From: Chloroflexota bacterium
GTDB lineage: Bacteria > Chloroflexota > Anaerolineae > Anaerolineales > Villigracilaceae
DNA length: 10,313 bases
Assembly: GCA_016191895.1 (NCBI GenBank)
Contig: JACPVD010000217.1
Span: forward strand, 1 to 10,313
Reading direction: 5' to 3'
Each line of letters starts with the position of its first letter. Within the stretch, counting starts at the first letter, position 1. Position numbers and translations under genes: made by a program. The notes beneath the pieces were generated by a model. It was not told the origin of the DNA. It made no database searches and was given only the letters and a program-made list of their open reading frames with translations. Below, piece by piece: positions 183-9,422 of the stretch.

Positions 183-683
183 CTATTTATCAGGGTTGAT
201 GTGGTGGATGATTTCCGCCCAAGATTCAACCATGAGTATTTTCTCTCCCGTATATTCGCTTTCAAATGCAGATTTTTCTTCCGGGAACGGGTTGAACAGG
301 TACAGTTTATTCATCAAGTCCAGGTCGTCCAAATGGCGCAACACAGACCAGCGATCGTCAATAAAATAATTGAGCCGATGTTCTTCCGCGATGATTCTTT
401 TTTGGTGCCTTTTCTCGCAGAAATAGAGATTTTCGAACGGCACGCCTGTTGTCTTGAAAAAATTCCTATGAAACAACCATTCCCTGGACATTCTCTGATT
501 CAGCATTGAACATTTTGAAACAAGAAATATATTTGTCCCGCCAAACCATTCGACCAGTTTTCCAACGGATTCGAATGTGCCCTCATAAGCCGGCACGTTG
601 AGATAATCTTTCCCAAAAGGGGCAACATCCGTATCCCTTTGGGTCAGCACATTGCCGATGTCGATTCCAATTTTCACATCCAT
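183..683 (-). CDS. Small HAD-like hydrolase family protein
   Basis: The 166-residue product reads as a compact HAD-fold protein without an obvious cap domain. Motif I is IDIGNVL with Asp8 as the expected nucleophile. The position two residues on, normally an Asp acid/base in HAD phosphatases, is Gly10, giving the DxGNV variant also known from YihX-type HADs. Motif II is probably Ser56 in FLVSKCS. Motif III is one of Lys91/95/96. Motif IV is the acidic pair Asp109-Asp110 in YFIDDR, which would bind Mg2+. The family acts on phosphomonoesters, but the substrate cannot be read from the sequence and nucleotidase-like or regulatory roles are possible. The ATG at 683 has only a weak upstream purine run (AGGGA, about 14 bases away). 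It begins 33 bases after the chelatase D stop on the same strand, so it is probably co-transcribed. Fold assignment is fairly sure; activity is not. Confidence 0.7.
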   Translation of the reverse strand: MDVKIGIDIGNVLTQRDTDVAPFGKDYLNVPAYEGTFESVGKLVEWFGGTNIFLVSKCSMLNQRMSREWLFHRNFFKTTGVPFENLYFCEKRHQKRIIAEEHRLNYFIDDRWSVLRHLDDLDLMNKLYLFNPFPEEKSAFESEYTGEKILMVESWAEIIHHINPDK

Positions 684-716: not shown

Positions 717-1628
717 CTACTTCTTCACCGGCTTTGCCATCTCATCCTTGACGGCGTGATACAAATTCTCAGCCTTGAGCTCGCTGAGCGCGTAACACGG
801 GGCTTTGAGGTTATCCGCCAATTGCTGGGCGAGTCCCTGATCGAAGGCGGCGTCTTCCATGTTGATCACCACCGAGCGGACTTTTTCATTCGCAATGAGT
901 TCCGCGAATTTATAGGATTCTTCCTGCGGCGGCAATGTGCCCAGTGAGACATTCCCCGCGCCATCGGTCAGGACAATGAGGAGCGGTTCCACATCGGGAT
1001 GTGTGTGTTTTTCGTGCGTCAATACATCGTGCGCCATGAACAACCCTGCCGAAAGCGGAGTCTTCCCGCCGACGGGAATATCCATCAATGCGCGTTGCGC
1101 GAGTTGCACGGAGTTGGTGGGGGAGAGCACCAGCGTGGCGCGATCTTTTTGAAAGACGATCAAACCCACACGGTCACGGCGTTGATACGCGTCTGTCAAC
1201 AGCGAAAGGATCGCGCCTTTAGTTGCGTTCATGCGTTCGGCTACCGCCATCGACCATGAAGCATCCACCAGGAACAGCACAAGATTTGCAACCCGCTTCA
1301 CGCGGACTTTGCGTTGCAGGTCGCCTTTCTTAATGGAGAAGGCGAGTTTCTTCCGTTCTTCCGTGCGTTGTTTTTGGAACGGCGCGGCGGCGCGGAAGGT
1401 GGCGTCGAAAGCGATGTCGTTGAGTTTATCGCCGGCCGGACGCGCCTTGATATAACGGCCATGCTTGCGCTCGGTCTTGGTGAGCGAACGACGTCCGGCC
1501 TGTTTGCGGGTTAATTTATCGAGAGGGGTATTGAGCTTGCGCGGTTGGAAGGTCTCGCCTGCTTTAACTTTTTGCCCGCCGTCCCACCAGTTTGCGCTCG
1601 TGCTTGCGAACACTTCCTGTTGCTGCAT
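717..1628 (-). CDS. chlD: Magnesium/cobalt chelatase ChlD-like C-terminal half (VWA domain)
   Basis: This 303-residue frame is the C-terminal half of a ChlD/BchD-type chelatase subunit. A conserved basic stretch (residues about 40-65, AGRRSLTKTERKHGRY) leads to the family segment IAFDATFRAAAPFQ (72-85) and a von Willebrand A/integrin-I domain (about 115-295). The MIDAS metal site is complete: DASWS (Asp122, Ser124, Ser126), Thr190 in GGKTPLSAGL, and Asp222 in LTDGAGN. In the family this subunit forms a ring with ChlI and couples ATP hydrolysis to metal insertion by a large porphyrin-binding subunit. The ATG at 1628 has no good ribosome binding site. The frame stays open upstream through 1685 and on to 1724, overlapping the end of the ATPase gene. 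I therefore think it is mostly translated by a -1 shift at the A9 run (1692-1684), giving a fused product of about 687 residues. Independent initiation at 1628 cannot be excluded. The large subunit is not in the window, so Mg versus Co is undecided. Confidence 0.85.
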   Translation of the reverse strand: MQQQEVFASTSANWWDGGQKVKAGETFQPRKLNTPLDKLTRKQAGRRSLTKTERKHGRYIKARPAGDKLNDIAFDATFRAAAPFQKQRTEERKKLAFSIKKGDLQRKVRVKRVANLVLFLVDASWSMAVAERMNATKGAILSLLTDAYQRRDRVGLIVFQKDRATLVLSPTNSVQLAQRALMDIPVGGKTPLSAGLFMAHDVLTHEKHTHPDVEPLLIVLTDGAGNVSLGTLPPQEESYKFAELIANEKVRSVVINMEDAAFDQGLAQQLADNLKAPCYALSELKAENLYHAVKDEMAKPVKK

Positions 1629-1678
1629 GGGTTCGGGGTTTCCCTGTTGCGGACCTTCCTGCTGTTCATCTTCAAGTT

Positions 1679-2779
1679 TTAAGTTTTTTTTTCCTCGCCT
1701 TCGCCGTCCTGCTTGCTTTCGGATTCATCGTCCGCTTCGCTCGGCATGGACTGACCCGCCAACTGTTCGATGCGTTCCTGTAATTGTTCGGTGGTCATTT
1801 CGGCTTGTTGGAACGGCGTGCGCTTGATGCGGTGGGGAAGGGCCAATTCTGCGGCCAGCGCGATATCGTGATCGTTGATTTTGGTCCGGCCTTCGAAAGC
1901 GGCTTCGGCGCGTGCGGCTTTGAGGATGACCAAATCCGCGCGGTGACCATCGACATTCAATGAGGCGGTCAGTGCGGCAATGGAGAGCAGGTCGCGGCTG
2001 GTGTGCGTGACCTGATCGACGAGTTCGCGGCCGCGCGCGATCTTCTGTGAAAGTTCATCTTCCTTCACAAGCCATAATTTACGGAAGGTATCTGCGTCTT
2101 TTTCGTAGGACAGGTTGCGCTCCATGATCGTGACGCGCTCGCGCGCATCGCGGATGCCGACGATATCGACGGATAGCGCAAAGCGGTCCAGCAGCTGGGG
2201 GCGGAGATCCCCCTCTTCAGGATTCATCGTCCCGACGAGAATGAAGCGCGCCGGGTGGGCGAAGGAAATCCCCTCGCGTTCGACCGTGTTCACGCCCATG
2301 GCGGCAGAGTCGAGGAGAATATCCACCACATGATCGTCGAGCAGATTCACTTCGTCGATGTAGAGCAATCCGCGGTTTGCGCTGGCGAGCACACCGGGCT
2401 CGAAATGACGTTCACCTTTTTGAATGGCTTTTTCGATATCGAGCGTGCCAACCACGCGATCTTCGGTGGCGGAAACGGGAAGGTTGATGAATGGCGTGGC
2501 GCGTTCTGCGGTGGGAAGTTTCTTCGCGGCGGCATAACGTTCCTTGCATTCGGTACACCATGTCCCGGGTTTCTCGGGATCGCATCCGAAGCGGCAATCC
2601 TGCACGATTTTTACATGGGGCAACAACGCGGCCAGGGAACGCGCGGCGGTCGACTTTGCCGTGCCGCGTTCGCCGCGGATCAATACGCCGCCGATGCGGG
2701 TATCAACTGCATTAAGAATGAGGGCGCGTTTCATGCGCTCCTGTCCAACAATGGCTGTGAATGGGAAAATGGCGGGCAT
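1679..2779 (-). CDS. chlI: Magnesium/cobalt chelatase AAA+ ATPase (ChlI / ChlD N-terminal half)
   Basis: The 366-residue product is an AAA+ ATPase of the ChlI/BchI type. Walker A is GERGTAKST (36-44, Lys42), Walker B is LLYIDE (Asp142, Glu143), sensor 1 is in VGTMNPEEG (Asn186), and the arginine finger is probably Arg199 in LLDRF. Four cysteines (62, 66, 75, 78) form the CxxxC/CxxC insert common in this branch. A helical lid follows (about 245-330) with NVDGHRADLVILKAARA. The C-terminus is an acidic, Ser/Glu-rich linker (about 345-363), as found between the ATPase and VWA halves of ChlD. I chose ATG 2779 because GGAG lies seven bases upstream and the protein then begins PFTAIVGQE; the frame extends to 2845 but those 22 residues are not family-like. 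The stop TAA (1681-1679) follows the A9 slippery run by two bases. The hexameric ATPase would drive metal insertion in (bacterio)chlorophyll or cobalamin synthesis; which one is not shown here. Confidence 0.9.
   Translation of the reverse strand: MPAIFPFTAIVGQERMKRALILNAVDTRIGGVLIRGERGTAKSTAARSLAALLPHVKIVQDCRFGCDPEKPGTWCTECKERYAAAKKLPTAERATPFINLPVSATEDRVVGTLDIEKAIQKGERHFEPGVLASANRGLLYIDEVNLLDDHVVDILLDSAAMGVNTVEREGISFAHPARFILVGTMNPEEGDLRPQLLDRFALSVDIVGIRDARERVTIMERNLSYEKDADTFRKLWLVKEDELSQKIARGRELVDQVTHTSRDLLSIAALTASLNVDGHRADLVILKAARAEAAFEGRTKINDHDIALAAELALPHRIKRTPFQQAEMTTEQLQERIEQLAGQSMPSEADDESESKQDGEGEEKKT
1684..1692 (-). other. A9 slippery site: probable -1 programmed frameshift joining chlI to chlD
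   Basis: The coding strand reads GAG-GAA-AAA-AAA-ACT-TAA in the ATPase frame, with nine A residues at 1692-1684. Slipping back one base on A-AAA-AAA places the ribosome on AAC-TTA-AAA and enters the VWA frame, open from 1685 to 720. An extra A added by RNA polymerase would do the same. The VWA frame is closed upstream by TGA at 1727-1725, so the switch must occur between 1724 and 1682. The result is 365 ATPase codons plus 322 VWA codons, a normal ChlD length, with the switch lying in the acidic linker. Short Shine-Dalgarno-like AGGA (1710-1707) and GAGG (1696-1693) precede the run. I see no strong hairpin close downstream; a weak one could form at about 1655-1630. The weak downstream structure leaves transcriptional slippage a good alternative. 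An assembly error in the homopolymer is the main other explanation. Confidence 0.7.
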
Positions 2780-2786
2780 GTGTGTA

Positions 2787-2790
2787 CTCC
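2787..2790 (-). promoter_or_regulatory. Ribosome binding site fixing the chlI start
   Basis: GGAG on the minus strand is seven bases before ATG 2779. No comparable site precedes the upstream in-frame ATG at 2845, which overlaps the promoter itself. Confidence 0.65.
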
Positions 2791-8900: not shown

Positions 8901-9422
8901 CGGCTTAGGAGGGGTGAAGGTTCAAGGTTGAAGGTCGAAGGTTCGCCTGAAGTTACACTTGACTTTCAACTTTCAACTTTCAACCTTCCACTATCTCTCC
9001 CCGTCAATGTAGATTTGCCGCTTGCGGTTGGAATCCCCAGCGAATATATTTCGGATCAGGATTTGCGCCTGCGTTTGTATCGCCGCATTGCGGATCTGCG
9101 CGACGAGACCGAACTCGACGCGCTTGGCTCCGAGTTTCGCGATCGATTCGGCATCATGCCGGAGACGACCCAAAACTTGCTGTATCAGATGCGGGTGAAG
9201 TTGCGAGCCGAGAAAGCGGGGCTGGCTTCGGTAAACATGGAGTCGTCGGGGCAGATTCTGCTCAAATATCCCGCGCCGGTTGACGGGTCTGATGTGAAGC
9301 GTTTGCCCGATCTGGGAAATGGGGTGAGGGGAGGCAAGTCTGCTTATTGGGTGACGGTTGGGAATGACGAATTGTGGAGGGTGAAGTTGCTGGATGTGTT
9401 GGGGGAGTTGGAGAATAGATAA
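5973..9422 (+). CDS. mfd: Transcription-repair coupling factor Mfd
   Basis: The 1149-residue product has the full Mfd architecture. A UvrB-like damage-recognition module is at about 10-330, with the typical [12 protein letters not shown] near 182-193. The linker to RNA polymerase interaction carries [14 protein letters not shown] at about 472-485 (CarD/RID domain to about 530). The RecG-like SF2 translocase follows: Walker [10 protein letters not shown] (620-628), DEEQ box (721-724), TATPIPRTL (747-755), and motif [10 protein letters not shown] (890-897). [13 protein letters not shown] (945-957) and the C-terminal TRCF domain (about 1015-1110) complete it. Mfd pushes stalled RNA polymerase off damaged DNA and recruits UvrA. 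ATG 5973 is preferred over the in-frame TTG at 5931, since the protein then begins at the normal family position. No ribosome binding site is visible before either; a TAAAAT at 5951-5956 could be a -10 box with a very short leader. An inverted repeat is inserted at residues about 982-1006. Confidence 0.97.
8916..8988. repeat. In-frame inverted repeat of 7-bp units inside mfd
   Basis: Four tandem copies of a GAAGGTT-like unit (8916-8943) face four copies of its complement, AACTTTC/AACCTTC-like (8961-8988), across a 17-base loop. The two arms align over 28 positions with 22 Watson-Crick pairs, four G-T wobbles and two mismatches, so the RNA could form a long hairpin. It is read in frame and adds roughly 20 residues ([20 protein letters not shown] and a few more) to the linker between the helicase and C-terminal domains. 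Heptamer arrays and in-frame palindromic elements are known in other bacteria, but I cannot name this family. Confidence 0.75.

Follow-up and report, generated by a model that had tools for sequence, protein, structure and literature searches.

A nine-adenine run as the probable slip site of a one-gene, two-product chlD in Chloroflexota, and orthologues that keep the run in changing frames

We analysed a 10,313-nt stretch of Chloroflexota DNA (hereafter the window) from a fragmented MAG (G000; 67% complete, 367 contigs) and conclude from its sequence, with a probability of about 0.9, that it carries a slippage gene of the fs-chlD kind, one gene with two products. Reading in the zero frame would stop just past a run of nine A residues and give a ChlI-like ATPase, while a −1 slip at the run would lead on to a ChlD-like protein composed of ATPase part, linker and VWA part. 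The slip could occur either by re-pairing of the ribosome on A_AAA_AAA or by addition of one A to the mRNA by RNA polymerase. The two products would have the ATPase part in common and presumably join in a mixed AAA+ ring, and both are probably made, in comparable amounts. The window gene is a further member of a kind already published; what appears to be new lies in its orthologues, in which a retained run goes with reversed polarity, and not in the window gene. The features of the gene are as follows.

2787-2790, minus strand: Shine-Dalgarno (SD) sequence GGAG, 7 nt 5′ of the ATG of the gene; a 4-nt SD match is present in 81 of the 85 sequences tested.
1679-2779, minus strand: ChlI-like AAA+ ATPase frame (predicted short product), 366 aa, from ATG at 2779 to TAA at 1681-1679; matches TIGR02442 positions 1-353, TIGR02030 under its cut-off, and solved ChlI/BchI structures at E 1e-97 to 1e-94.
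2648-2674, minus strand: GERGTAKST, with A instead of G before K; we take it to be the Walker A motif, the usual form of which has G before K.
1684-1692, minus strand: putative slip site A9, zero-frame reading GAA AAA AAA ACT TAA, which holds an in-phase A_AAA_AAA; A9 or A10 in 87/87 distinct sequences, window included.
1679-1681, minus strand: zero-frame stop TAA ending the short product, 2 nt 3′ of the run; at equal distance in 78/87 distinct sequences.
717-1724, minus strand: −1 frame with acidic linker and ChlD-like VWA half, 687 aa once joined to the ATPase half; matches TIGR02442 positions 384-640, VWA_2 and 2x31 (60 kDa Mg-chelatase subunit).
1626-1628, minus strand: first in-frame ATG of the VWA half, with a poor ribosome binding site (3-nt SD match); 9/87 distinct sequences have no start codon at all.
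1251-1265, minus strand: DASWS (DxSxS) of the VWA domain, presumably the MIDAS motif.

The run (1692-1684) apart, the window has no homopolymer of 8 nt or longer. Relative to the ATPase frame, the VWA frame is shifted by −1 and stays open from position 1724 to its end at 717, and the two frames overlap by 43 nt; a preliminary description of this DNA had put the ATPase stop two bases past A9 and the VWA half at −1 with an overlap of about 43 bases, and the same coordinates were recovered on the minus strand. Its product sizes were also reproduced, since a single −1 slip at A9 would give a fused ATPase-linker-VWA product of 687 aa and no slip a ChlI-like protein of 366 aa. Both halves matched TIGR02442 (putative cobaltochelatase), in its N- and C-terminal parts, respectively, each alone staying below the full-length cut-off. 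The ATPase half matched the solved ChlI/BchI structures and the VWA half matched BchD, which are the AAA+ and VWA subunits of the BchI/BchD family found in Mg and Co chelatases.

The set of close relatives consisted of the best 80 of 141 confirmed loci from a contig scan, plus 30 loci taken from a search of 61 genomes with matches in 52; six order-level genes with open frames longer than 430 aa from the latter search were left out. Among the 112 loci at first, 111 had both halves, L001 (another Mg_chelatase match) was dropped, and the 111 were reduced to 87 distinct sequences, window included. In named contigs the relatives were Chloroflexota, many of them Anaerolineales. The VWA half was at −1 in 87/87 distinct sequences, with A9 in 86 and A10 in one, and GAAAAAAAAACTTAA was identical in 70/87. 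In an alignment of the 87 sequences anchored at the run, conservation was 100% in each of the nine A columns and 0.33 to 0.98 in the flanking columns; the check by alignment proposed in the preliminary description thus came out as it had expected, with the A-run conserved in 87/87, the stop 2 nt past it in 78/87 and variable flanks. Within 587,068 bases of 80 related loci (L003-L082; best 80 of 141), 80 of the 82 runs of A9/T9 or longer were the slip site, and runs of A9 or longer occurred at 17 places in the whole own genome. The A9 and −1 arrangement was also present in two single-contig genomes (G021 and G026).

Just past the stop, variability by −1-frame codon position was 0.148/0.056/0.318 (85 sequences), highest at the third position, which indicates that this stretch is translated in the −1 frame before any start codon. 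Just 5′ of the run, no third-position excess was found (0.439/0.288/0.425). Comparison of the relatives shows the two frames, a conserved site and −1-frame coding right past the stop. Slippage had been the preliminary reading, together with the remark that frameshifting chlD genes can make both subunits; the former is strongly supported by the arrangement in 87/87, the −1 codon periodicity and published precedents, and the latter by the same precedents, as given in the available text of PMC3711429 and PMC9227772.

Across the class and phylum, the family was searched in 249 class genomes and 151 genomes drawn from the phylum, some being in both. From the matches listed, 140 chlD regions (L113-L252) were hand-picked and spread over families, a non-random choice in which some genomes gave 2-3 regions. 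An orthologue rule set by hand (ATPase ≥55% and VWA ≥45% identity to the window) retained 104 of the 140. Frames, phases and distances were all derived from one pipeline, and the genera are incompletely independent. Among the 104 orthologues, the VWA half lay at −1 behind a run in 62 and at +1 behind A10 in 2; the remaining 40 were uninterrupted, 34 of them with A6 or a longer run and 6 without a run. Among the 36 non-orthologue regions, 33 were uninterrupted without a run, one (L127) was interrupted without a run and two, from family f80 and just below the rule, were uninterrupted with a run. The L127 pair (G258) is divergent (49/37% identity), lacks an A-run and has a 1-nt frame overlap; it is perhaps a pair of separate chlI and chlD genes.

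Uninterrupted close relatives without a slippery run had been named beforehand as evidence against slippage. The orthologue group contains 42 uninterrupted genes (40 under the identity rule and 2 from family f80), of which six are of this type, whereas 36 keep A6 or more with a close −1 stop. The six run-less genes (L179, L183, L189, L194, L203 and L209; families f23, f32, f39 and f63) come from genomes in which no second ChlI match was found, so two products seem not to be needed in every lineage. All 36 uninterrupted genes with a run (27 genera) carry a −1 stop ≤29 nt from it. Counted by genus, a −1 stop ≤30 nt was present in 27/27, compared with control rates of 0.37 for the linker (binomial p 3e-12 against this rate) and 0.24 for the remainder of the gene. 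These genes would have a reversed, dnaX-like polarity, in which the zero frame gives the long product and a −1 slip the short one; in the window itself the zero frame gives the short product.

In relatives the slip site is thus usually kept, while the product of the non-slipped reading appears to switch repeatedly. A tree of 109 orthologues (104 + 5) was obtained by a quick search under LG+G4 and carries a long-branch warning. On it, the three frame arrangements require a minimum of 21 changes and run presence 4, and the starred branches force at least 13 changes for the uninterrupted label. Within genus g28, L132 (A9, interrupted) and L174 (A10, uninterrupted) were identical at 135/145 positions around the site and differed in length by one A; single pairs of this sort could be sequencing errors. 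The uninterrupted form with A9 was found in at least 3 genomes each of families f80, f38, f24, f47 and f20. Two A10 genes of family f56 (L125 and L167) have the VWA half in the +1 frame, so that −1 ribosomal slippage alone could not give their long product.

The route of slippage was considered by run length. All A7 runs (15/15) were in phase xxA AAA AAA and all interrupted A8 runs (7/7) in phase xAA AAA AAA. As A makes up only 5.8% of fourfold third positions in A7 genes, the in-phase A_AAA_AAA looks selected. A_AAA_AAA or A_AAA_AAG was in phase in every examined run of at least A7 and was absent from two A6 runs (L185 and L190). Folding of the 50 nt downstream, compared with shuffles, had a mean z of −2.13 in 19 A7/A8 genera and −0.32 in 56 A9/A10 genera (p 1e-5), and the contrast was also found at the family level (10 vs 32 families, p 0.001); families f52 and f56 were weak or contrary and the single A9 genes L207 and L158 have a stem. 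A hairpin lies shortly past the run in most A7/A8 genes, many of the stems starting about 7 nt from it, and the A9/A10 genes are mostly without one. A +1-frame stop ≤30 nt was present in 48/57 A9/A10 genera and 11/21 short-run genera (p 0.007; controls 0.11-0.32), and fewer +1 stops in the A7/A8 genes may partly be due to their GC-rich stems. These patterns favour ribosomal slippage in A7/A8 genes and suggest that polymerase slippage may have a large share in A9/A10 genes, including that of the window.

For the window, a purely ribosomal −1 slip on A_AAA_AAA with no polymerase part, as in the A7/A8 relatives, is a serious contender that we rate a little below even. A9 in any phase contains an in-phase A_AAA_AAA, −1 is far the commoner interrupted form (62 vs 2 among orthologue rows), and the uninterrupted genes with a run have their −1 stop ≤29 nt away in 36/36. 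Insertion-biased polymerase slippage would favour −1 as well, however, and the extra +1-frame stops of A9/A10 genes and the two A10 genes needing +1 point away from ribosomes alone. A downstream hairpin, a usual though not universal part of fs-chlD, was not found in the window (folding z +0.57), nor is one present on average in A9/A10 genes. Polymerase slippage is accordingly placed slightly ahead of purely ribosomal slippage for the window. The preliminary description had seen little downstream RNA structure, in agreement with this z value, and its suggestion that RNA polymerase slippage may contribute gains some support from the A9/A10 genes, which are mostly without hairpins and mostly have stops in both other frames.

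We give even odds to a wider reading of chlD in Chloroflexota, in which the conserved trait would be a slip site giving a roughly balanced ratio of short to long product and not the frame. Under this reading −1, uninterrupted and rare +1 forms would replace one another (a minimum of 21 changes, as opposed to 4 for run presence, in some cases through a single A between members of one genus), slipping itself would alternate between ribosomal (A7/A8 with hairpin) and polymerase-type (A9/A10 with stops in both other frames), and in most of these bacteria the products would serve an AAA+/VWA machine without a known metal-inserting subunit. With a balanced ratio near 50%, the choice of standard product would matter little and polarity flips would be nearly neutral.

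Returning to the window gene, the VWA half might instead be an adjacent gene translated alone by reinitiation past the TAA, with no fusion made; we regard this as improbable. An in-frame ATG does lie 55 nt past the run in the window (1628-1626), and some VWA-frame start codon is nearby in 78/87 distinct sequences; over a wider stretch, one is present in 158 of the 175 interrupted genes (duplicates not removed). That ATG has an SD match of only 3 nt, against the 4-nt GGAG of the real start, and the claim of the preliminary description that the VWA half lacks a good ribosome binding site extends to the 87 sequences, where no match exceeded 4 nt, 4 nt was reached in 4/87 and 9/87 have no start codon. 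Before the VWA-frame start of the 175 interrupted genes (duplicates counted), a 4-nt SD was found in 30 and a 5-nt SD in one. Moreover, the stretch past the stop evolves as −1-frame codons, and 40/104 orthologues encode the fusion in a single frame. Reinitiation is therefore disfavoured by the weak SD, the missing start codons and the −1 codon pattern, and slippage at A9 is preferred. A pseudogene or an assembly error with A10 in the real DNA is the least probable explanation, for although the source MAG is fragmented (67% complete, 367 contigs) and homopolymers are error-prone, the arrangement agrees in 87/87 distinct sequences from many separate assemblies, two of them single-contig genomes, codon periodicity continues in the −1 frame behind the stop, and A9 is otherwise rare.

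The label 'chelatase' for the window gene is given on homology only. PF02514 (ChlH/CobN) had no match in the own genome (67% complete) and none in the 13 family f1 genomes listed, G000 included, so a role in chelation is putative. In the class, PF02514 matched in 25/249 genomes, 24 of them over the cut-off; 23 were among the 161 genomes with completeness ≥90% and contamination ≤5%. In the examined part of the own genome (67% complete) no separate chlI was found, and the only other Mg_chelatase match is a 514-aa frame that looks like YifB. The single-contig relatives G021 and G026 have one match each. A rule by which uninterrupted chlD goes with a separate chlI and interrupted chlD without one was unsupported: a further distant ChlI-like match (36-49% identity, E up to 1e-40) in a shorter frame was found in 12/33 genomes chosen for an uninterrupted gene, six of the 12 being one genus and that of G066 lying in a longer frame with a stop, vs 6/35 chosen for an interrupted gene. 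Among the 33 genomes of the uninterrupted set, five (G171, G124, G092, G151 and G104) contain two or more ChlD-like genes or pieces. Outside the class, the 12 run-less genes fetched from f86, f83, f73 and f108 share their contig with a ChlI-like match; in 9 genomes of f78, f74, f94 and f70, whose genes are run-less too, a second small ChlI match was looked for and not found.

The neighbourhood is a weak functional clue. Among the best 80 of 141 loci, some cut by contig ends, the best-kept neighbour was a divergent S1-domain gene (51/80), which gives no hint of function; a downstream oxidoreductase-like gene on the opposite strand was found in 29/80, and another neighbour cluster in 49 loci consists apparently of reverse-strand frames. 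The last 48 VWA residues have a second match, some 0.7 kb downstream from the gene, in two genomes of the same genus (G031:C201:6382-6525 and G001:C37:33773-33916; identities of 81 and 54%).

As described in the available text of the sources, fs-chlD was published in 2013 (PMC3711429) and cases from Anaerolineaceae in 2022 (PMC9227772), the latter in four species that all have a separate chlI as well. Interrupted chlD genes were annotated as two genes, and a fused Chloroflexus aggregans protein was taken to point to a shared function; frameshift product from chelatase cassettes carrying A7, A9 and A11 in E. coli reporters amounted to 10, 40 and 63%, respectively, the A9 cassette being from another species (PMC3711429). 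A slip site A_AAA_AAR is conserved in the overlap of fs-chlD (PMC5009743). The window gene shares with fs-chlD the ChlI- and ChlD-like halves in overlapping frames, the −1 shift and the poly-A site. In the published account, within the text available, the signal vanishes from single-frame chlD, whereas most uninterrupted orthologues here keep the run and the −1 stop. A second difference is that hairpins here track run length. Novelty of the reversed-polarity form is provisional: no description of an uninterrupted chlD with a retained slip site was found in a literature search that did not cover Antonov 2020, a work said to treat fs-chlD genes as well.

Outside chelatases, dnaX is the nearest comparison. 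The E. coli tau/gamma gene and the reversed version that a few bacteria have (PMC5009743, in the text available) likewise obtain long and short products with a common ATPase part from one gene, with reversible polarity; they belong to another protein family, and in chlD a single bacterial class shows many changes of arrangement. Polymerase slippage in Thermus thermophilus dnaX, by the same text, also uses a run of nine with stops in both non-zero frames; it was measured there, while slippage here is deduced from sequence. In the own genome, dnaX had matches below the cut-off only. Matches of the AAA+ and VWA halves point to the subunits of Mg-chelatase (BchI/BchD) and Co-chelatase, but one gene stands here in place of two, and no ChlH/CobN was found in the 13 f1 genomes. 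The frequent absence of ChlH/CobN hints at another job for the AAA+/VWA pair, a question already raised in PMC9227772, the available text of which mentions fs-chlD species without the large subunit, such as Brevefilum fermentans, and calls the function unknown.

The orthologues amount to a natural recoding experiment, since a single gene differs across the class in run length, hairpin, phase, off-frame stops and polarity. The set would allow selection on the ratio of two products to be tested against selection on frame, and the replacement of ribosomal by polymerase slippage, or the reverse, to be examined. A short product of uninterrupted chlD would escape frame-based annotation. For plasmid-borne relatives from other phyla, 42 records matched and 6 among the 40 listed were fetched: a Comamonas gene is interrupted with A7, a Spirosoma gene has A8 with a −1 stop at 39 nt, and the other four have no run of A5 or longer. 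Reversed polarity was not seen in this small look at 6 genes outside Chloroflexota.

Two further observations concern the rest of the window. After the slippage gene and on the same strand, 183-683 (minus) encodes a 166-aa protein with no Pfam/NCBIfam match at E 0.001, the start of which, we assume, resembles HAD-type phosphatases. At 8911-9000 (plus strand), an imperfect inverted repeat with arms of 33 nt (73% complementary) lies inside the frame of mfd (transcription-repair coupling factor), which it leaves unbroken; similar DNA occurs at 8 other places in the own genome, and these copies suggest that the repeat is a dispersed palindromic element that has entered a coding gene.
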